This document shows, piece by piece, positions 49-51,572 of a DNA stretch of 64,000 nt (its first letter is position 1; each line of letters begins with the position of its first letter). The translations under genes and the position numbers were made by a program. The notes beneath the pieces were generated by a model. The model was not told the DNA's origin. It did not search any database and saw nothing but the letters and a program-made list of their open reading frames with translations. This stretch comes from Epinephelus fuscoguttatus (taxonomy: Eukaryota; Chordata; Actinopteri; Perciformes; Serranidae): NCBI RefSeq assembly GCF_011397635.1, contig NC_064753.1, forward strand, positions 33,752,322-33,816,321, read 5' to 3'.

Positions 49-38288
<38,240 letters not shown>

Positions 38289-38900: not shown

Positions 38901-39830
38901 TAATAATGATAAGACATAGCCTATAATAAAACGGCGACTCCTGTACTTCCCATAATACTGGTTGAAACTGATTGTGACATATTTAATAATACTGCTTTAA
39001 AATTACATTTACAAAAAGGGCTGTAACGTTAGATAGCCTATTATTTGGCTCTGTCTGTGCACATAAAGCTAGGCTACTAATGGATATTAATATTCCATCT
39101 CCAAAAGCCTTTTCCTTTAAAAGGCTGTTTGGTTGTCTTTTTTAACAAAAAAAACAAAAAAAAAACAGCATTGTTAGAATAAATAAACTACACACCATAT
39201 CGTAATTATTTACATTCTACAAATTAACATCGGTTTACTTTGGTAATGCGTTATGAGGAAACTTTTTTCCCCAGTAATTCTTTATTGGGCTTAGCAAATA
39301 CAAACAAACAAGGGGCATTTTCAAGTCCTGTAGTTCAAGCAACATCTGTTAGGTTGAGCCAGGAGAAAATAACTACACATTACAAATATATAAATATTAA
39401 AAAAAAATAGGGTATCCCAAATTAATTTAAACATGCCTGTGAGTGAAAACAGTTTAAGAGCGTTCATGTCTTTAACAAGTTTCAGTGACTTGGCCTACTA
39501 TAGAGTTTCAACTCATTCTTCCAATGGTTCAAATGGGTTTAGTCTTTAAGTATCTACATCAATGAATCAAGAACAATATTAAGTCCACATTCTTGTTTTC
39601 AACGCAAAAACCTGCAGTCAGGGGTGACGTAACAATCTCCCTGGACTGCAGCCACCATTGCATATCACTCCAGATGGACCGCAGTGAATCGCAATAAACT
39701 TTCAACTTCCATGTCATAAAATGTACATATATTTGCATCAAAATTAAATCTCAATCTTAAAAATTCGTTCGTTGTGAGGAAACTAATTGGAGTAAATTAC
39801 TGTAAAACCGATTCACTTCCTACTGTGAAC
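38901..39830. other. Spacer between tanc1 and the snoRNA host gene
   Basis: AT-rich, without an ORF, RNA or repeat that I can support. The two flanking genes point away from each other, so regulatory sequence for both may lie here. Confidence 0.5.
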
Positions 39831-39887
39831 AACAGGGGGCGACAATGTAAACTAAAGTTCCCTCCTTGTCCACAGGGGGCGACAATG
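39830..39887 (+). promoter_or_regulatory. Paired CTCF-like motifs upstream of the snoRNA host gene
   Basis: AACAGGGGGCGACAATG at 39831 and CACAGGGGGCGACAATG at 39871, a 40-base period in the same orientation. The second, read with its flank (CCACAGGGGGCGAC), is close to the CTCF core. They lie 25-80 bases upstream of the TATA-like box and between two divergent transcription units. Confidence 0.4.
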
Positions 39888-39912
39888 AGTCATAACCGGT
39901 AGACCGGTAACC

Positions 39913-39955
39913 TATTTAATCTGGAGACTCCTGAAAGATCGGTCCTTTCCTTTCA
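39913..39955 (+). promoter_or_regulatory. TATA-like box and TOP-like initiator of the snoRNA host gene
   Basis: TATTTAAT at 39913-39920 is followed about 25-30 bases later by GGTCCTTTCCTTTCACTT, a C-initiated pyrimidine run typical of 5' TOP transcripts. The spacing matches a TATA-initiator pair. The transcript start is inferred at about 39944. Confidence 0.5.
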
Positions 39956-41417
39956 CTTACTCGACTGCGCTCACTGAAGAAGTCAAGAGGAAGAAATGCC
40001 TCCTTCAGTAACATACAGAAGACGAAACAACCTCAACAGCTCGATCATCTGTAAGTATATTAGCTACTTCTCATGCTGTTTAGTGAAACCAAGGTAACGG
40101 CTAACGGAGCGTTAAGATATTCTAACGTTATAGTTTTATCAGTCTGTGCACACGTGTGAAGTAGCCGCTGCTCCATTTTGTTTTTCCGTCTGAATCCGTT
40201 TCGGAATAAACAGCATTGCGATGTTAGCCCACCAGATAGTTAGCGAAATATGTTATCTTACAGGACGCCAAGCTTGCTAGTGTCCCGTTATGTTAAACTT
40301 CAGGTTTGTGAGTGGTTTAAGGGTAATGGTGAAGACATACCAACAGGCCGAAGAACTTTAGCATAGCACCGGAAATGCCTTAACGTCTTCATTAATGCTA
40401 GCCTAACGGTAATGCTAACTTGACCTATGTAGCTAACAACGCGAACGTTAAATGTCTTAGTTACACGGTTTCGGTGGATCAGTTTAACAATTGATGTTTG
40501 GTAGTGTAACTCTATGATTTTAAGACGAACTTTAAACGATTTGGCTAATTTTAGTTGGGTCGACAACGTGCTATGTTGGCCTGCACAGTTGGTTACCATA
40601 AGCTAGCAACCTTTCCTTAGCCTGGTCATTGACCGTAAATAACGTTAACTCATTACGCATTAACGCATTAACAATAACATAAGGTAATGTAGAGGATAAA
40701 CAAACGTTGATTTTTTTTTTTTTTTACCGTCAATTACGGTAATCCGTTGAACACAAACTTAATCAAGATCTTCTTTGTCTCAAGTTTTCAAAAGCTTATT
40801 AATCAATCCAATACTGTTACAGCACATATACCGTTATTAATTTGAGGTATTGAGATTTAAAAGACACAGGAGGATCAATTTATTCATGAATTATATATAA
40901 TTTAGATTCGGGACAACCACATATTCCCCTGGATCTCTGGATTTTTGGGGGGGCAAATTTTCTATTAGCCTAATTAATGTGTAGGCTGTAAAAAAAAAAA
41001 AATCAAATATGGTTCTATAAACTTAATATTTAAAGTGCACAGTGTCGACAGATTGAATTTAATCAAAATAAGATGATTTATTCTGGCACTAATGACAAAT
41101 AACCCCCTTTCTGCACATTTTTTCCGAGCAGATCTTATGCCATTTGGTGGACACCTGTATGAGCCAGATGGAGGATGATGGCTGTGTTTGAGCTTCACCA
41201 GACTGTCCCAGTGATGACTGTGCTGTGGCAACACCACAACCTGCCATGGCAGTATAATTACTTGAGAAAATGGGTCTGAGAGAGGAGCTCCAACAAGAGG
41301 ACTGCGACCATCTGCAGCAAGTCATTTGTGAAAATGTATGTAAAGATGTGTTTACTTTGAGGAGACACATGCTTAAATCGGTCTTACTAATCAAGCCTTT
41401 AAGCTCCAGTCACAAGC

Positions 41418-41552
41418 TGCATCTTTGACAGCCTGGGCTCTCTGATGTGAGATATCCTGGGTTTTAATATTTCAGATGCAATATTAAATGTCCCTGCGCT
41501 TTCTGCTCGCCTCTTTCCCGTGGCGTCTCAGATTGAATTGGGGAGGATAAGT
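41418..41552 (+). ncRNA. H/ACA-snoRNA-like element, copy 1 (intron 1)
   Basis: The 5' hairpin is closed by a perfect 7-bp stem, TGCATCT (41418) with AGATGCA (41474). It is followed at once by ATATTA (41481-41486), an exact ANANNA H box. The 3' hairpin has CGCC (41508) with GGCG (41522) above an internal loop, and a lower stem of CCCT against the GGGGAGG run. The tail box is ATA at 41547, three bases before the predicted end; ATA is a tolerated ACA variant. Length about 135 nt, normal for the class. The 3' pocket sequences GCGCTTTCTG and CAGATTGAATTG are shared with copy 2. SNORA31 is suspected only from synteny; no target is assigned. Confidence 0.6.
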
Positions 41553-41809
41553 CAAAAACAATGTTTAATGTTGACTTGTAGCTGCCATTTATCATAACTA
41601 ACTGTACACATACTACAGACTATTTTATAGGGAGCCTAAATGTTATCCTTTTTCTCCATTTCCAGTCTCAAGGTCTCAGCTTCAGGGGGTGAAACCAGAG
41701 AGATGATGTTGCAGCAGCACCTGGAACGGATACTGTTTAACTGATCCAAGCTGATACATTTGCAGGTGAGCACTTTGTAATGTTGTCTTGTGTTGGGGTA
41801 GACTTCAAT

Positions 41810-41942
41810 TTGCATCCACTGATAGACCTGAAGCAGGTTTCATTGGCTTCTGGGTTTGCATAGAGATGCTAAATTGAGCCCTCCTCGCGCTTTCTGACTG
41901 CTACATTCAATAGCAGCACAGATTGAATTGAGGAATACATTT
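41810..41942 (+). ncRNA. H/ACA-snoRNA-like element, copy 2 (intron 2)
   Basis: The lower 5' stem is GCATC (41812) with GATGC (41865). The apical stem is AGACCTG-aag-CAGGTTT (41824-41840). The hinge contains AAATTG at 41871, one base off the H-box consensus. The 3' hairpin has a perfect CTGCTA (41898) / TAGCAG (41911) stem, a lower CCTC/GAGG stem and a canonical ACA at 41937-41939. The 3' pocket has GCGCTTTCTGA and CAGATTGAATTG, nearly the same as copy 1, while the apical stems differ. That pattern (conserved pockets, freely changing but still paired stems) is what a functional guide RNA pair should show. Confidence 0.62.
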
Positions 41943-43169
41943 GAGCTCGTTGGCCGTGGTCCAAGGACAGATTTACAACTGGATGCCTAGTGGCCCTGGA
42001 TATTTTTCATCATTTTGTCTCACCCACTAAATCTGTAAGTGGATTCTTGCACACTTCGGTTGTACTCACAACAGTGGGCATTTACAGAATCAGCATATCA
42101 AACTAAGGTTCTAGTCCCTGGAAATGTAAAATTTAAACTAATTGGATTAATATTTAGCAGGCAGCTTATAAAAGTAATTTGCCAGGCACTGCTACTTGTC
42201 ATGGGATGACTTTGTGACAAAATGTGTTGCATCTTTCTTAATGTTTTTAATTTTCTTGCAGGTAATAAGTGAGACACTGCAAACACCTGATGGGTACTGG
42301 ACAAGTGGAATTGTTTTTCCAAATCAGATATATATTTACATTGTCTGACCCAATATGAATCAGCCAAAAAGGAGTTGTGGAACCTTGCCTGGAAAGGGGA
42401 AACTGTTGGGCCCCCACCTGGGGACCTAGGCTTGCTGACCCCTGGCATCAGACAGCAGCATTTGTATTAATATAATAAATCAATGCAGTGTGAATTGGCA
42501 TGCTATGTGTGAAAATAACATTTGGTCTGTAAAGAAATAAAAAAACATTTGAACTCAACCTCTAAATCATTTGTTAATTTAAATTAAAACTTGTTGGATG
42601 ATGTTAAACCCCAGGATTTATGCAGGTGTGGAGGCAAACTATTTTTAGTTTACACTTAAAGCCATCATAATTTAGCCATAGGCTTAAATACTGTACAGAG
42701 GTACTAGTTACCAGTTAAAATTTGGATAAGCAATATGACTATTTTAATTACTCCATCAAATAATGTAGGTAATGTGGTCCTAAAGCGGTGGAATACTGAA
42801 ACTATTATCATGGGTAGATTTGAAGTGACATACTTGGGATTAGATGTAAAAATGTGTGGCAATTGGGCCAGATATTGGCTGGTACAAATATTTCTGTAGA
42901 CGGTAATTGGCTTAAAAAGTAAGCTATTTAGTGCCACAAGACAAAGTAACCAGTTGATAGGGCTATATTGGCTCAAACTGAGGATTAAGCCAAATGAAAA
43001 AAAAACAGATGAGCTGTAGGAGAAGCCTACAATAGATGTTGAATGGTTGTTACGATTGTTTTTACTGTGGTTCCAAATTTTAAACAGATGTATTGGTGTG
43101 TTTACTGCTGCCAAATGTTAAGCTTGATTGTGTTCTATTAAAAAGTCAGATTTTTTTTTTTTTTTAAGA

Positions 43170-43944
43170 GTTCTATTTAAACACATTTATTGCATAAATC
43201 AATGAAATGTAAAACAATTTAAAATTACAGTGAGGATGAGCGAATGTGAGGACACCTGAAGCACACAGAATTACAGCAATAGTGCCAGTCTAAAAATGTC
43301 ATCAATGCAAGTTCAGGTTGAATTTGTCTTCCCGAGTCATGGTGCAGAAACCTGTTAAGCTGCATTTTTTTTTTTTAAAAAAAAGAACATATCATTTTGA
43401 AAAAGTAAAATTAAAAAACGTCTAGAAAAACAAACCTCCTCAGCACATATCAGTCAAGTGGTGAGCGCCGTTACCGGTGTCACATCCTCTTAACATTATA
43501 CCTCTTACCTCCAGATATACTTATGTCTGAACATTAGAAAATAATGCTAAAACCAGAGTTTATAGATGCATCTTTTGCTTCATATAATATTACCTCCTGT
43601 GTGTGACGTATATAACAACTACTTCAATTATCTGTTACCTGTGCCGGAGCTGTGACAGAACCACATCAGTAACAGACCGTGCACACTTAAGCTTAAAAAC
43701 CTCTGTTAGTTTCCAAACGCCCCTTCTCTTCGTCTTCTACAAAATATCAAAAAGATAAAACATTTTCTCCACAAAAGCGTCTCCCTGTAAAACACAGCCT
43801 TTGCTTGACCTCATCATCCAGTGTGTTTTGAGACCTGATGTCAGGAAATCAGGAGACGACTCTGTGGTCCAACCAAGGCCCGGTCTGGGAAGGAGCCCTC
43901 CGTCAAATGAAAAGGTTGTTTGTCGGCCTTGGGGGGGTCAGGAA
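43170..43944 (-). other. gtf2f2: gtf2f2 3' UTR
   Basis: Sequence after the stop codon (TAG, 43947-43945) up to a reverse-strand AATAAA seen as tttatt near 43186, close to a poly-T run at 43150-43165. No further coding sequence was seen. The end is within about 600 bases of the convergent snoRNA host gene. Confidence 0.5.
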
Positions 43945-46900
43945 CTATTCGTCAGTGTTTTCCTCGCCTTGGTAATGTCGGTATTCTGGTTTGAGCTCCC
44001 AGGTGTTCTTGTGTGTTCCCTTCACGTTGTAGATGCCAATATCACGCAAGATTTCCTTCAAGTAAATCTGGGCAAAGAAAAAAAACATGAGAAAAGATGA
44101 CAAAATAATATCTTTACATTTCAGACACTGGAGCTGAAGTACCTTAGGCAATGTTTTTTAATTATTTTATTGTAATAATATGAAACTGTATGGTAGATTG
44201 TGGTACACAGCAAAATTGGCACATTCACTGCAGCTATACTCTTGCGATGGAGAAATATTTATCTGGACCAGGACTGACGAACAACTCAAATGACACCAGA
44301 TTAAATTGTTTTTTCATGAGTAAAAAGCACTGGTGGAGTCAGCCAGTATAAACAGTGTTATAACCAAAGCCCCCGTGTTGCCCTCCAGTCTTACCACAGG
44401 CTGTTTGGTGATGTCCACCAGGTCTTTGATGTTGTAGTACTGGTGCTTCTCAAAAGCAGAAAACAACATGTCCAACACCTGCTGTCTGTCTGCTCTCGCT
44501 CTCTTGCCCTCCTCCTTCTTTTTCCGCTCGTACTCAAGCTGCAGCAAAAAGTAAACAGACAGAGGTCAGGTAACTCATACAGGCTTACACCTTACTGAGA
44601 CACACCAGTGTCTTTGCATGTCATGACAACTCTTTCATTAAATGTTTTCCTCCTTTTAGTTTCCATTCATTTCCATATTTTACGAACATAAATGTGGAAA
44701 GACTAGAAATTTGCTTCACAAAGGCAGTCGATCAGCAGGGTCATCAACAAACAATATGCTTTGCAGTAACGTCAAATACATGATTTGTAATAATTAGTTA
44801 CAACAAGCAACAATATTCCTGTGTGTTTTAAAATGCATGGTGAATACACGTCAAAATGCATCAAGATTTTAAGACTGATGAAACGAGACAATCCCGTACA
44901 GGATGCATTTCTTACATTGTAAGTATGGTTGGCCACAGGTTTGTAGTTGCTGGTGACAGCTTTGTCCAGCTGCTGTGACAGCCTGACTGGCTTGGACAGC
45001 TCTTCAATTTGTAACCTGTTAAGATGATGAGAATTACTTCACTTGCACAAGTATAATAATTTACATACACTGTTTACACTGAGTTAGCTGGAAAAAACAA
45101 CAACTGTATGATTTAATGCAATGTAATACAATAGTTCTGCAAGTAAACATACAATATATATAATTCTCTGCCACTAGGGGTCTCTGTATCATAGCAATAA
45201 CAAAAGACGGAGTAACGCAGTCTTTGCAGTGACTCTCTTCCTGGCTAGGATTCCTGCATTGTCTTTATTGTTCAGGAGGTTTTTTAGCAGAAGCAGAAGC
45301 TAATTTATCTTAATTTTATTCTTCTCCAAAACAGACGGACCAGGCAATATAAACCAGTTAGTGGTTCTCCGATGATGCTCGGCCCATCTTGCGCCAATGT
45401 GTGCTGACCTTTTTCTCTGATAATATAACAGGTTTTTAAAGGGAGCCAAATTATCCGCAAAGGTCTCCTCCTCTCCAAAACAAACAGATCCAGTGATTTA
45501 AACCAGTAAAAACACTGAATAAAGCAGTTTCACATTTTAAATCAGTGTTTCTCCAGCACTGTTCAGCATGACAGGGGCTGGAGCTTAGCTGCAGCTAACG
45601 TTTGCTCAGCTGACAACTTAAGATTCAGACATCCGATGACTAAACTCCTTCATCCGGTTAAAATTTATAGTTAAAAACGACAAAGATGTAAAAAGTGCAT
45701 TGTAAAAATCTGGCTTAAACGTTTATTAAAAAGTCACTTTATGAGAGCTTTAGGGAACCACAACCCTGACACATGCGCAGAGGGGATGTGACGCATCAAG
45801 ACATCAAGATTAAAAATTGAATTTAAAAGAACAGAGCTTTGAATCCTGAACTATTAAAATTATAGATTGATAACAGTGTATATTTATGCAGGGGTTTCTA
45901 TTCCAAGTCACTCAATTTACCTATATGTAGATACATAATAAGATTTAACATGCACCACACATGTATCAATGACATTAAGCTGTTTAAGACATGCACATAC
46001 AATAATGTGGACGTAACATAACAATCTACATTCATGCATCTAACCTTGCAAGTGGAATGCAGGTTCTTGTCTCAACATACTACCTTGTGTGTGCACACCA
46101 TTTTGAAAATACTCACCTCTTCAGCCTCATGTAGTTTTCACTAACAGCAGGTCTGCACTCTGCTCTCTGCACCACCACTCCCTCCAATGCTATTTTATCT
46201 GAAGAAAGAGAAGAGTTAATTAAAACCCTGATAAAAACTTCCAAAAATCCCTGTGTCCCAAAGCATCTTAGTGCATGTTTTCTTCATACGTAAAGAAGGG
46301 TGAGCGGTTTCGTGTGTGAGAGAGAAGTGATGAAAGCAGACACTAAATGACTGGGTCATGTGTTCAGAAGAAAAATACACTCCAGAAGCAGAATTATTTA
46401 TACGAATCTAGTTCAGTCCAGGCTCTCTCCTAAAGCTGAAGGAAATATGTCAGAGCAATCAAGGGGTCAGTTTCTGAAACTCCACAACTTTTCATTTGCT
46501 TTCACTCAGATCACTCAAATAATGTAACTGCACTCATTATAATGTAATTACTACGAACCACCTTGGTCTGACACACACATCGAGCTCTCTCTGCTATTAC
46601 TGATTCATCCAAAAGTTAATTCGATTTCAGCATTTCTCTTAATTACACCAAAAACTTATTTAGTACAATTTTCATTTTCTCTATAAATACTTAAAAATCA
46701 TAAAACCACTTTGTTTCCTAAGTTCTCTCTAAACCAGTCACATTGGCTGGATACTGACTCAGAATAGAGGTCACACAGTCCCTTACTGAAAATAAAACGA
46801 TTGTTGAACAAAATACACAGTACGTGTATATGCTATTGCACATTTGCACACCTTATGAGTATGCAAGTAAAGTATTCAGGACTCAGTTATAGCTTTGACC

Positions 46901-49900
46901 TTCCAGATGTACAGTAAATCAGAGTCTGCTGGCCATGGTAGATGAGGACCAAGACAGTACTGAGTTTGTCTCATTAACAACAGCTTTATAAGTCTCACCA
47001 GTCAGAAAGAAAATGTTAATGAGTGAGTCTATATACACTAAGTTTAAATATAGAGTGCTCCAGGACAACAGGTTTTTCGAATGGGTTTTTGGTAAGATGC
47101 CTGAAATAAGGTCTGTGGTTAACAAAAGGCTAAGAGACTTTCATGTTTTGTTCTATGACATAAAATATGTCAGTAAATACCTCAGCCGTGATTTCTGAAG
47201 CTTTTATGCTTCTTAAAAAAGGCAATTGCTGACAAGTGGCTACAGAACGTCATCACGCTATTTTAATACCACTGTGTTGTTGACTGTTGATGAGGGGAAT
47301 TGTGGTTCTTGTTTTTTTGTCTTTTATGAGCTGCTGGGCAGTAAAATTTCCCTTCGGGGATGAATAAATTTCCTTCTGTTCTATTCAATTAGATTTTTAC
47401 TTCTGGCAACTGAAAAATCATAAAAGTGGTGTCTGTGAAGATTATCTTGCTGAACAAAATGTGTAAGTATCATTAATAAGTATTTGCAACAGAGCTTATT
47501 GTCTGCAATAATCCAAAAATCCAATGGAAAATTCTCATAGGCTTTTTGACAAGGCAACCAGGGCAATGCTAACTTCAACGTCAGCCCACAGAAAAATGTC
47601 ATCCCTGGAGCACTCTATTCTGAGCAGGTAAAGAAATAAAATAAAATAATCCCCAATTCATCAAGAAGACATCAGTGAAAGCACCACTTATTCGCATCAC
47701 AAAGTTACTTTTTGTCAACATGAAGTTTGAAAGGTCGCTTGCTATCAGAGTAGATCTAAACTAAAACAGTTAGAAACAGTCAGATATTTATTCACATCAC
47801 ACAATGTCACAACTGGACTGGCAATACAACCTCCACCATGAGCAGGTAGCACTCTGCTCAAGCACACTGTCGACCAGTCTGACCACAGACTCTCTTTTCC
47901 ATCCTCCAGTCAAGATGGTGCAAACTAGGTACAGAAGCTTCATATGAACTGTACAATTAGAAGAGAAGAGGCCCGTGTGATGCTTCAGGGCAAAACTGGG
48001 CGCTACATGAGTAGTGTAACTGCAGTTTTGGTACTGATACATGCATCTTCCAAAGCATGTATACAGGTTACTACTGTGATACTACAATCGCCATTTATTA
48101 ATAAAATAACAGCAGACACTCAGTGTGTCCGATTCCCAGTGGTGTAACGTTTGTCACTCGTTGGCAAAACAGAGGACTCACCTGGACCTGCCCCCGCCCC
48201 CGAACCTGAGCTGCTGCCATCAGATCTTTCTTCTGACTGGCCTACAGGAAGGGAGGGAGGGATGGTAAACATGAAAATACAGGGGATGGAAGACGGAGGA
48301 AGGAGGGAATCGAACAATAAGAACCACACCCAGGGTTTAGTCGCACACCAATGCGTTTAAAATCACACAGAGCTTTTCGGCGTAATCTCTGATGAGTACA
48401 CACCCGTGCGCCATGAGCAAAGCAAGCATGCCCTCACAAAAAGCGAGCACAGATACCCTGTCCCACCACAAATACACATCCAGAGGGCTGCACAAATATT
48501 TTCACATGAAACAACTGTACGCTACCAAAGCATTTCTCCACTTTAAGTTTAATAGTAAACACTTATCTGCACTTTAAAAAAAATATCGTAATTTACCTGT
48601 CTCTCATTTTGTCTTTTTTCTGTTCATGTATTGAATTTCACACTCTGTGACGCCTTATTATGTCCATGCAGCTGCCTTATTAGGCAGGTCTCTGCTTTAT
48701 ATAAAGTCATACTTAAAGAAAAAATCATACAATTCAACTGTGCAGCCCTACAACACACTCACACCCAGACATATACGTAAGACGGTGTCCCAAAGTAAGC
48801 ACAGTAGCACAAGCTCACCAGCATCTGTAGCAACAAAACACCTACATAAATTCAGAGGGCAGACACGGCTGGTGAAATTAAAACCAAACCAAAGAAACCC
48901 ATGCACAAATCAAATCAACTCCAAATTCAACAACAATTTGTGTTGATTGATCTACTCTATGTTAAATGAATTCCAAATGGGGCCATTGTGCCTGATCATA
49001 AACCCAATCTGCTGAGGTGATTGGTCAGGAAAGGTCAAACCACAAACAAATGACTGACAGAAGATCAAACACTGAAACTAAAATCCCCCTTATATAAAGA
49101 GACAGAAACACAGATCAGACTGGATGAAGACACACTTCCACCAACACACTAACTCTCTGTTTTCCACTGAGTGTTCACTTATCCACTATGAGCAATACAT
49201 TTCTTATATGTACTCTGTTAGGACTGTGGACAACCGCACACTCTAGGAAAAATCTGCCGAGAGTTCACAACACACAGAGACAAGCAGGGCAGGCAAGGGA
49301 AAGACTGTGCATGACAACAGCAAGCTGTACAAAGAGTAGGAGGTTTGGCGCCGCCACCACCTGATCACACAGAACTTACCTCTGGGATCTAGTGCAAACA
49401 GATATTTCACACCACAGACAACTATACGTGTAGATTCATCTCGCAGCAGATGCACTCAAAGCAAAGACTCGGCGTCCTCCAGCTGCGCTTGAAGATGACA
49501 ACAGAAACTCACCTGAGGAAGTCTCTGTGAAGACCGCCAACGTCTGACCTCCCACTGACTGCATGGCGAACGGGTGCTCGCGAGGTGCAGACACGGTCTT
49601 ATCTTCTATACCCTCAATCACAGTCAGTTCTTCATTCAAAGTGAAAGACACCTGTAAAGAGTAGTGACCACATTTAATCTTTTCAGATACTGATCTTATT
49701 GTCATAACCCTGTAACAGGACATGCACACATATAGTCACTTATTCTATTCCTGACAGTTCCAAACATATCTGCAAAGTATTTTAACCATCATTTATAAGT
49801 ATATTTACTGAGGACAATGTCAGAGAAGAATTTAGAAAATCTGACAGTGGATTACAGCAATCAATAAATTGTAGTATGATTAAACACACAGCCTGGCTTT

Positions 49901-51572
49901 GACTGACGACATAATAAAAATACATTTCTGTATCTGTAATCACTAATGCCACAAACACAAAAATGAGATACTCTCTAAATTAGGTTCTGCTATTGATTAT
50001 AAATGATTTCCTAAAAAAAAGATAACCTACAAAAAGCCATGAAAAAAGGTTTAGAATTAGCATAACTACATTTAAATAGATTAGATTAGTTATCCTTTTT
50101 TGTAAATCAAAAGGTATTTAGCCTTTATAAATTAACTAACTACTTCCCTAATACTGATTATGGTGGATGACTACACACGTATGACTCGTCTAAGACATCA
50201 TAAGGATGGCTGTCATAAATTATGTGAGCTTCTCTTAAACACAAGCAAAAGCAAACTCTAACCCCTATACCAAATTCAAAATAATCAGATGATATTTTGG
50301 CTACCATTAAAGCTGTCCATCCCTAAGCTTGACTGTAAAGAGAGAATAACGAGCAAAGGTAAAGTTATGGCATCCCAACAAAGTGTATATGTCTTCTACA
50401 CCATACATTGGTGTGTACATGGCACTGTATGTGGCAGATGCCCATCACCAGGATGCAGTGTACCTGTTTAAAACATCACTTACCTCTGGTCTTCCTTGGT
50501 TTCCTTTCCTTGGAGATAAAAAAATGAAAAGAATTAGAATTAATTGATTGGCAAAAATAACAGGATTTTTCATTTGAAATGCATTAGTAATAATATAACA
50601 AAAAACACTGCTTGTATAACAATGTCATTCCCCACAATAATTTTATCCTTCATGAGCACAGACACTGAATTTCCCTTTTGTCACATGTTGTGCACTTACA
50701 CATCTCATGATTGTAACTCAGAGACACATATAAATAACTCGTTTATGATGCTCAGTTGTTTCACATACTTGCAGATTCGGAGTTTCCCGACCTCGCCTCT
50801 GCCAGTCGCCTTTGCCCATTGCTGAGAGAGGTATTTGGGCACCTGCATGAAGAAACATGGGTATACTCTATGAGGGCTGCTGTCACCTTGGTGATGAGTC
50901 CTTTCGGCATAAACATGAAGCTGTCCCTCTGATATGCGGTCATTGAGATGAAGTTATACCAAACTAACCTGAGAGCTTACATGTATCTGGAGCCACACTT
51001 ACTATTCATATTGCTACAAATATTGGCACTACAAGATGAGGTTAACTTAGGAAGGATTTGACTATTCTTCTGTTACCATTAGTAAAAAGATGTTGATGTA
51101 ATTTGGCGGCTATAGTTGTACTTAAGGCTCCGCAAACCTTTATTAACTCTCTATAAAACAGCTCCCAAATATTTTCCTCAGCTGCTTAACGTTATAGCGT
51201 CCACTGTTATTACTCTGGCCATACTTGTTTACATTGGTTGTGTTGTCTAACGATGCTCACTAGTTAAATAAACAGCTTATGGCGTGTTGAGTATCAAAAA
51301 ATAATCTTACGATGAGTAGTTATGAGCAGTTTCACTTAGCTAGCTAACAATTTAAAATCTTAGCTAGCCTATAGCGGCAGCGCACGGTTTCATTCGATCG
51401 TAGCGGTAGATGCTAAGCTACATCACTGTTAGCTTTAGCTTCGTTTAAGTTAATATAACATCCTTTGCCCCATGAGCCAGTGTCATTAAAAAGGATATAC
51501 ACGCACCTTTACAAGCCATACACCCGTGTTCTGCTTGGCACCAGTTAAATCCACTTCTCCTTTCTCTGACAT
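43945..51572 (-). CDS. gtf2f2: General transcription factor IIF subunit 2 (TFIIF beta, RAP30)
   Basis: Small subunit of TFIIF, which binds RNA polymerase II and helps assemble the preinitiation complex. Nine coding exons: 51507-51572, 50769-50842, 50484-50508, 49513-49651, 48182-48241, 46117-46198, 44916-45015, 44395-44538 and 43945-44067. They give 270 codons plus stop with all phases compatible. Family marks: LTGAKQNTGVWLVKVPKYL at the N-terminus, SAPREHPF..QSVGGQTL in the dimerization domain, VVVQRAECRP, ENYMRLKRL, and the C-terminal winged helix VLDMLFSAFEKHQYY..LVDITKQPV followed by HKNTWELKPEYRHYQGEE. Without the 60-nt exon 48182-48241 the protein would be 250 residues, against my recollection of 249 for human. 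The 25-nt exon 50484-50508 adds one residue relative to human. Confidence 0.97.
45265..45650 (+). repeat. Dispersed repeat family D, copy 2 (gtf2f2 intron)
   Basis: Carries AAATTATCCGCAAAGGTC, CTCCTCTCCAAAACAAACAG, AATGTGTGCTGACCTTTTTC and AAATCAGTGTTTCTCC, matching copy 1. Located between gtf2f2 exons 44916-45015 and 46117-46198. Confidence 0.55.
46900..47400 (+). repeat. Possible non-LTR retrotransposon 3' end in gtf2f2 intron
   Basis: Ends in GCAGTAAAATTTCCCTTCGG, GGATGAATAAATTTCC, TTCTGTTCTATTCAATT, which resembles the short-repeat tails of fish non-LTR elements (AATTTCC..GGGAT.AATAAA). The upstream part has no intact reverse transcriptase frame. Tentative. Confidence 0.3.
48182..48241 (-). 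CDS. gtf2f2: gtf2f2 extra 60-nt in-frame exon (Ser/Gly/Ala-rich linker)
   Basis: This exon has a ctgtag acceptor and a gtgagt donor and begins and ends in phase 1. It can therefore be included or skipped without changing frame. It encodes about 20 residues reading GQSEERSDGSSSGSGAGAGP, inserted between FTETSS and DKIALEG. The flanking exons also join directly in phase to give SSDKIALEG, matching the human order SSSDKLSLEG. Inclusion is inferred from splice-site quality only. Confidence 0.6.

Follow-up and report, generated by a model that had tools for sequence, protein, structure and literature searches.

The 64,000-nucleotide stretch of Epinephelus fuscoguttatus DNA analyzed here (NCBI RefSeq assembly GCF_011397635.1, contig NC_064753.1, positions 33,752,322 to 33,816,321 of the forward strand; hereafter the window) contains, at positions 39945-42556 of its plus strand, a spliced gene model that lacks any long open reading frame (ORF) and carries two copies of the H/ACA small nucleolar RNA (snoRNA) SNORA31 in its introns. 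The locus is probably a non-coding snoRNA host gene of terminal oligopyrimidine (TOP) type, descended from a duplicate of tpt1, the gene encoding TCTP. An initial annotation of the window had left two origins side by side, a tpt1-derived gene that lost its protein and kept its snoRNA role, or a separate host that took the snoRNA over. The first is now the better supported of the two, owing to the identity of the snoRNAs as SNORA31, the slot that tpt1 occupies next to gtf2f2 on another contig of the same genome, the reciprocal presence and absence of protein and snoRNA at the two loci, and coincident splice junctions. The mirror-image loss, with tpt1 copies that lack the snoRNA, and the surviving intron positions go beyond what that annotation had foreseen.

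Gene model of the host locus

The model consists of four exons on the plus strand. A TATA-like box, TATTTAA (39913-39919), lies 32 nucleotides (nt) upstream of a putative pyrimidine start at 39945 (CTTTCCTTTC). Exon 1 (39945-40050), with this TOP-like sequence at its 5' end, exon 2 (41132-41335), exon 3 (41666-41765) and the last exon, exon 4 (42262 to about 42556), are proposed as counterparts of tpt1 exons 1, 3, 4 and 5, respectively. Good donor sites (GTAAGT, GTATGT and GTGAGC in introns 1-3) are matched by CAG acceptors, and two AATAAA signals, at 42474 and 42536, lie in exon 4. The promoter elements, splice sites and polyadenylation signals listed by the initial annotation are thus all found where it had put them.

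Its ceiling of 31 codons for any ORF was a small error: the longest ATG-initiated ORF of the spliced model has 34 codons, and the next two have 33 and 30. The 33-codon ORF starts at the first ATG, in exon 1, and reaches its stop codon in exon 2, some 157 nt short of the following junction. Host exon 1 does not encode the N-terminus of TCTP, and searches for TCTP-like sequence in the window were negative, the best tblastn match having an E value of 0.95 and the TCTP family giving no match. A host that encodes TCTP was rejected on the lack of any TCTP match in the window and the 34-codon maximum, and a tpt1 gene elsewhere in the window on the same tblastn result. Genome searches covered 1.047 Gb in 26 contigs, with the window on contig C2. 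They returned no further copy of the host exons, which are therefore not regarded as a repeat; an origin of the host as a dispersed repeat was rejected for the same reason. Two features of TOP snoRNA hosts are present here: snoRNAs within the introns of a model whose splicing is predicted, and no long ORF.

Two intronic copies of SNORA31

Intron 2 (41336-41665) and intron 3 (41766-42261) each contain one full-length match to the SNORA31 model RF00322 on the strand of the gene. The copy in intron 2, i2, spans 41417-41552 (50.9 bits, E 2.8e-6) and the copy in intron 3, i3, spans 41810-41942 (83.6 bits, E 7.2e-14); the gathering score of the model is 40 bits. The two H/ACA-like elements of the initial annotation are thus SNORA31, as the covariance check it had suggested makes plain. 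These are not chance matches, since i2 and i3 are the only Rfam matches at gathering in the whole window and the only ones at E values up to 1 in 39500-43200. A genome-wide SNORA31 search, in which 42 of 75089 first-look candidates were scored, likewise gave matches at the host locus only. A pattern for the 3' hairpin of SNORA31, run against viral contigs as potential carriers of other vertebrate DNA, had 0 matches.

The i2 copy has an H box, ATATTA, at 41481-41486, while ATA replaces ACA at 41547-41549 and the 5' hairpin is diverged relative to i3. In i3, the ACA lies at 41937-41939, 3 nt from the 3' end, and the hinge (TAAATTGA) is without a strict ANANNA. The imperfections of the two copies are complementary: a good H box accompanies the ATA and the diverged hairpin in i2, and a good ACA accompanies the irregular hinge in i3. 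Pairwise alignment reveals that the letters of the 3' guide pocket, GCGCTTTCTG and CAGATTGAATTG, are identical in both copies. Fold energies are moderately below those of shuffled sequences (z -1.85 and -2.06). The pocket is complementary to a putative 28S target segment. Two patterns for this segment found no match in the assembly; the assembly may lack ribosomal DNA, or the 28S letters used may be off.

In human, SNORA31 has TPT1 as its host, and its assigned targets are 18S U218 and 28S U3713, according to passages of PMC3766210. Another human gene, SNORA31B, maps to 13q14.13 and has the same orientation as TPT1; the relevant passages of PMC6028756 are silent on whether it is placed in a TPT1 intron. 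The existence of human SNORA31 and SNORA31B fits the presence of two copies at this locus.

The proposed twin locus with tpt1

Searched with the TCTP family, the whole genome yielded tpt1 only at C13:15483760-15496100 on the minus strand, as two tandem copies represented by six exon matches. Copy A is open over 170 codons across exons 1-5, and so is copy B; the last tpt1 exon with its stop codon was seen by eye in copy B only. A search for TFIIF beta found GTF2F2 both in the window and at C13:15477672-15480563; the C13 gene is on the plus strand and directly precedes the tpt1 copies. In the window, GTF2F2 occupies 43951-51572 on the minus strand, convergent with the host (tblastn with a human query, and PF02270). 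This is the arrangement in which GTF2F2 and tpt1 converge on C13, so that the host sits in the slot of tpt1. The initial annotation had inferred a tpt1-like position and orientation from human gene order around TPT1, a gene whose transcripts also have a TOP start; the inference is now borne out by the convergence of tpt1 and GTF2F2 within the same genome. The coding-strand GTF2F2 pieces of C2 and C13 share 64-97% identity over 28-40 residues each, and a pyrimidine tract is present at the assumed start of both the host and the C13 tpt1.

Gene content around the two loci differs in both directions. The DUF3752 domain of GPALPP1 (PF12572; 53258-53458 in the window, minus strand) is the only such match found in the genome. 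The C13 block is flanked by a KCTD4-like ORF before the GTF2F2 part and a RANBP2-like gene after tpt1 (both named by eye), and a search of the window for relatives of the KCTD4-like ORF was negative at E 1e-3. The restriction of GPALPP1 to C2 and the lack of a KCTD4-like relative in the window point to mutual gene loss, a pattern that ancient duplicates would be expected to show. The two loci are probably duplicates from the teleost genome duplication.

SNORA31 itself was not found near the C13 tpt1 copies. In 40 kb around them, Rfam models gave no SNORA31 match at E values up to 10, and the 11 weak matches obtained all belong to other families. A model built from i2 and i3, run unfiltered over 20 kb at tpt1, returned 21 matches at E values up to 10, of which the best scored 9.8 bits (E 1); run with default filters over 164 kb, it returned i2, i3 and a single further match, at E 8.3. 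In the C13 tpt1, introns 3 and 4 are 143 and 186-189 nt long. A candidate second snoRNA in tpt1 intron 3 found no support, its fold being no better than that of shuffles (z -0.32).

The tandem tpt1 copies (C13:15483000-15500000) have near-identical introns 3 and 4, with two substitutions in each and small gaps in intron 4. Their exons differ far more (26 of 185 positions in exon 3 and 10 of 106 in exon 4), with amino-acid changes in 25 of the 33 differing codons and with divergence of 0.084 at nonsynonymous (dN) and 0.111 at synonymous (dS) sites. This pattern suggests partial gene conversion, or else relaxed or positive selection on the protein.

Splice junctions and exon similarity

In the best translated local alignment between the spliced host and tpt1 copy A, which is blind to splice sites, host junctions 2 and 3 fall exactly on tpt1 junctions 3 and 4. 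The 3' end of host exon 2 thus coincides with tpt1 junction 3 (phase 2), both ends of host exon 3 with junctions 3 and 4, and the 5' end of host exon 4 with junction 4; at both places the coincidence is exact to the nucleotide and the phase is the same. As controls, 3000 dinucleotide shuffles and 2070 mock genes cut from real sequence were aligned in the same manner. Two exact junctions occurred in none of either set, and one or more in 8 shuffles and 12 mock genes. Because host exon 3 and tpt1 exon 4 are of nearly equal length (100 and 106 nt), the second match depends on the first, and a cautious figure for chance is therefore about 3 to 6 in 1000. When substitution matrix, gap penalty and query were varied, both junctions were recovered in 41 of 84 settings (of the 28 settings per query, copy A accounted for 25, copy B for 14 and human TPT1 for 2); among 400 shuffles, none had two junctions in any setting.

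Exon sizes are also similar, host exons 1, 2 and 3 being 106, 204 and 100 nt long and tpt1 exons 1, 3 and 4 being 103, 185 and 106 nt, with tpt1 exon 1 counted from its assumed start. Global alignment of host exon 1 with exon 1 of copy A is marginal (z = 2.35, p about 0.014). When alignments were anchored at splice donors, host exon 1 ranked 34 of 2972 against exon 1 of copy A and 562 of 2972 against that of copy B; the ranks for host exon 2 against tpt1 exon 3 were 239 (A) and 25 (B) of 2974, and those for host exon 3 against tpt1 exon 4 were 222 (A) and 975 (B) of 2975.

A number of results count against descent from tpt1. The junction test was designed only once the alignment was known, and the translated score itself is ordinary, being reached by 437 of the 3000 shuffles and 469 of the 2070 mock genes (141 of 500 shuffles in another run). 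The junction match is lost for copy A with BLOSUM62 at gap opening -11 or -12 and for copy B with BLOSUM80, and mostly lost with the human query, whose junctions were inferred from lengths. Global DNA alignments of host exons 2-4 with exons 3-5 of copy A give z values of 1.11, 1.09 and 0.35, and those with copy B 1.47, 0.53 and -0.03. In a grid of 20 exon pairings, the expected partner is best for host exon 1 only, and host exon 2 prefers tpt1 exon 5 (z 2.09) over exon 3 (z 1.01). When matches to host exon 1 were sought by sliding local alignment, exon 1 of copy A was not among the 25 best listed. Acceptor-anchored ranks are unremarkable: 1470 of 2279 with either copy for host exon 2 against tpt1 exon 3, 888 and 758 of 2279 for host exon 3, and 833 and 1326 of 2280 for host exon 4 against tpt1 exon 5. 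Finally, host intron 1 yielded no relic of tpt1 exon 2, with 226 of 300 shuffles doing equally well. Host exon 4 shows no sign of the last intron of tpt1. The nucleotide comparison of exons with TPT1 that the initial annotation had proposed therefore ends at or near noise, and since global, sliding local and splice-anchored alignments agree in this, no nucleotide-level homology of exons is claimed.

Alternative origins of the locus

Near-noise exon similarity is what would be expected if a separate non-coding host had arisen in the slot of a deleted tpt1 and gained SNORA31 by duplication or transposition, and snoRNAs do move between hosts. We regard this as unlikely. Two SNORA31 copies would have had to land in the tpt1 slot, in the tpt1 orientation and between junctions that match those of tpt1, a match that neither the 3000 shuffles nor the 2070 mock genes produced by chance; moreover, the genome-wide search among its 42 scored candidates revealed no other locus from which SNORA31 could have come. 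Descent from tpt1 is instead made probable by the junctions, the syntenic slot, the orientation, the similar exon sizes and the reciprocal loss taken together.

The same locus might be read as a decayed, untranscribed tpt1 pseudogene with SNORA31 copies that are dead relics. Expression is here a prediction, and the ATA and diverged 5' hairpin of i2 and the irregular H box of i3 would suit such decay. Yet while the exons have sunk to noise, the promoter elements, all six splice sites, the polyadenylation signals and full-length snoRNA matches persist, i2 and i3 agree in every letter of the 3' guide pocket, and no other SNORA31 emerged from the scored candidates of the genome. A dead locus is thus very improbable. 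A short-peptide gene, with one of the 30-34-codon ORFs as its product and the snoRNAs as passengers, is hardly credible: the 33-codon ORF does begin at the first ATG, in exon 1, but these ORFs are short and do not resemble TCTP.

Other features of the window

A Pfam scan of seven exon ORFs in the window also gave ankyrin repeats and a helicase (ERCC3-like by eye). Four of the seven, including single ORFs of GTF2F2 and GPALPP1, were without a Pfam match. Together with GTF2F2, the GPALPP1 domain and the second GTF2F2 gene on C13, this gene content is in keeping with a teleost. Two minus-strand ORFs, 5222-5515 and 33989-34372, share a similar peptide, PGTQF.FCTTDLI, which points to a dispersed repeat in the window.

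Proposed working and significance

From the anatomy of the locus and from known host genes we infer the following scheme. The exons of the ancestral gene would have encoded TCTP and its introns SNORA31. The gtf2f2-tpt1 block would then have been duplicated, most likely in the teleost whole-genome duplication. The C13 copy would have retained the protein and lost the snoRNA; the C2 copy would have lost the TCTP frame and, seemingly, exon 2, while keeping promoter type, splicing and snoRNAs. Transcription of the host by RNA polymerase II is predicted to start at the pyrimidine tract, followed by splicing of the pre-RNA. Debranching and trimming of introns 2 and 3 would leave SNORA31 in complex with the dyskerin-NHP2-NOP10-GAR1 core, and the snoRNA may guide pseudouridylation of ribosomal RNA, at 28S U3713 and 18S U218 if the human assignment holds. 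The spliced exonic RNA, probably a by-product, would leave the nucleus and be degraded by nonsense-mediated decay, as predicted from the stop of the first, 33-codon ORF about 157 nt before the next junction. A clean split of this kind, in which one tpt1 ohnologue keeps only the protein and the other only SNORA31, with the snoRNA half surviving across teleosts as a long non-coding RNA (lncRNA) host, seems to us somewhat better than an even prospect.

A nameable parent, together with the opposite loss in its duplicate, supports the idea that non-coding snoRNA hosts can be coding genes stripped down to their intronic snoRNAs. The case would amount to a subfunctionalization in which the units that part are nested genes and not enhancers or domains. 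The locus also separates TCTP from SNORA31, two products that come from a single host gene in human and are confounded when expression is studied; passages of PMC3766210 describe an inability to say whether loss of SNORA31 merely marks loss of TPT1. If our reading is correct, the functions of the TPT1 protein and of the snoRNA could be removed separately in fish by deleting either gene.

Comparison with known systems

In zebrafish snoRNA host genes, pyrimidine and canonical initiation are both found, and the pyrimidine part tracks snoRNA expression better, as passages of PMC6954239 report. SNORA31 and tpt1 are not mentioned in the main text of that paper, nor is SNORA31 in the main texts of a 2023 survey of vertebrate snoRNAs (PMC10234308) and of a Tetraodon transcriptome paper (PMC5024134). 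Among the matches listed in our literature search, no title or abstract opening describes such a split, most subscription journals lying outside the search. The change from a coding gene to an lncRNA is itself known; the present locus would add a non-coding snoRNA host whose coding parent can be named and whose twin shows the opposite loss.

The closest known counterpart of the host is the vertebrate TPT1 gene. They have in common the hosting of SNORA31, known for human TPT1 from passages of PMC3766210, and the convergence with GTF2F2 seen for tpt1 on C13. The host differs in that it has no TCTP frame, that tpt1 exon 2 and the last intron are not seen, and that its exons match those of tpt1 at noise level only.

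Non-coding TOP snoRNA host genes are a known class, of which UHG is one member. The host resembles two others, GAS5 and the U17 host gene, in its putative pyrimidine start, lack of a long ORF and intronic snoRNAs (as judged from titles cited in PMC6954239). Unlike for these genes, a coding parent can be named here, and a duplicate with the complementary loss is present in the same genome.

A further parallel is offered by lncRNAs that are fossils of coding genes, such as XIST, derived from LNX3, as well as JPX and FTX, treated in passages of PMC5577775. As is proposed for our locus, these are coding genes that became non-coding in place and are recognized mainly by synteny, sequence similarity being limited; the same passages call the route to lncRNAs from duplicates much harder to quantify. 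In contrast to XIST, JPX and FTX, the host would have kept an ancestral job, production of a snoRNA, rather than gained a new lncRNA function, and its parent would survive as a duplicate.

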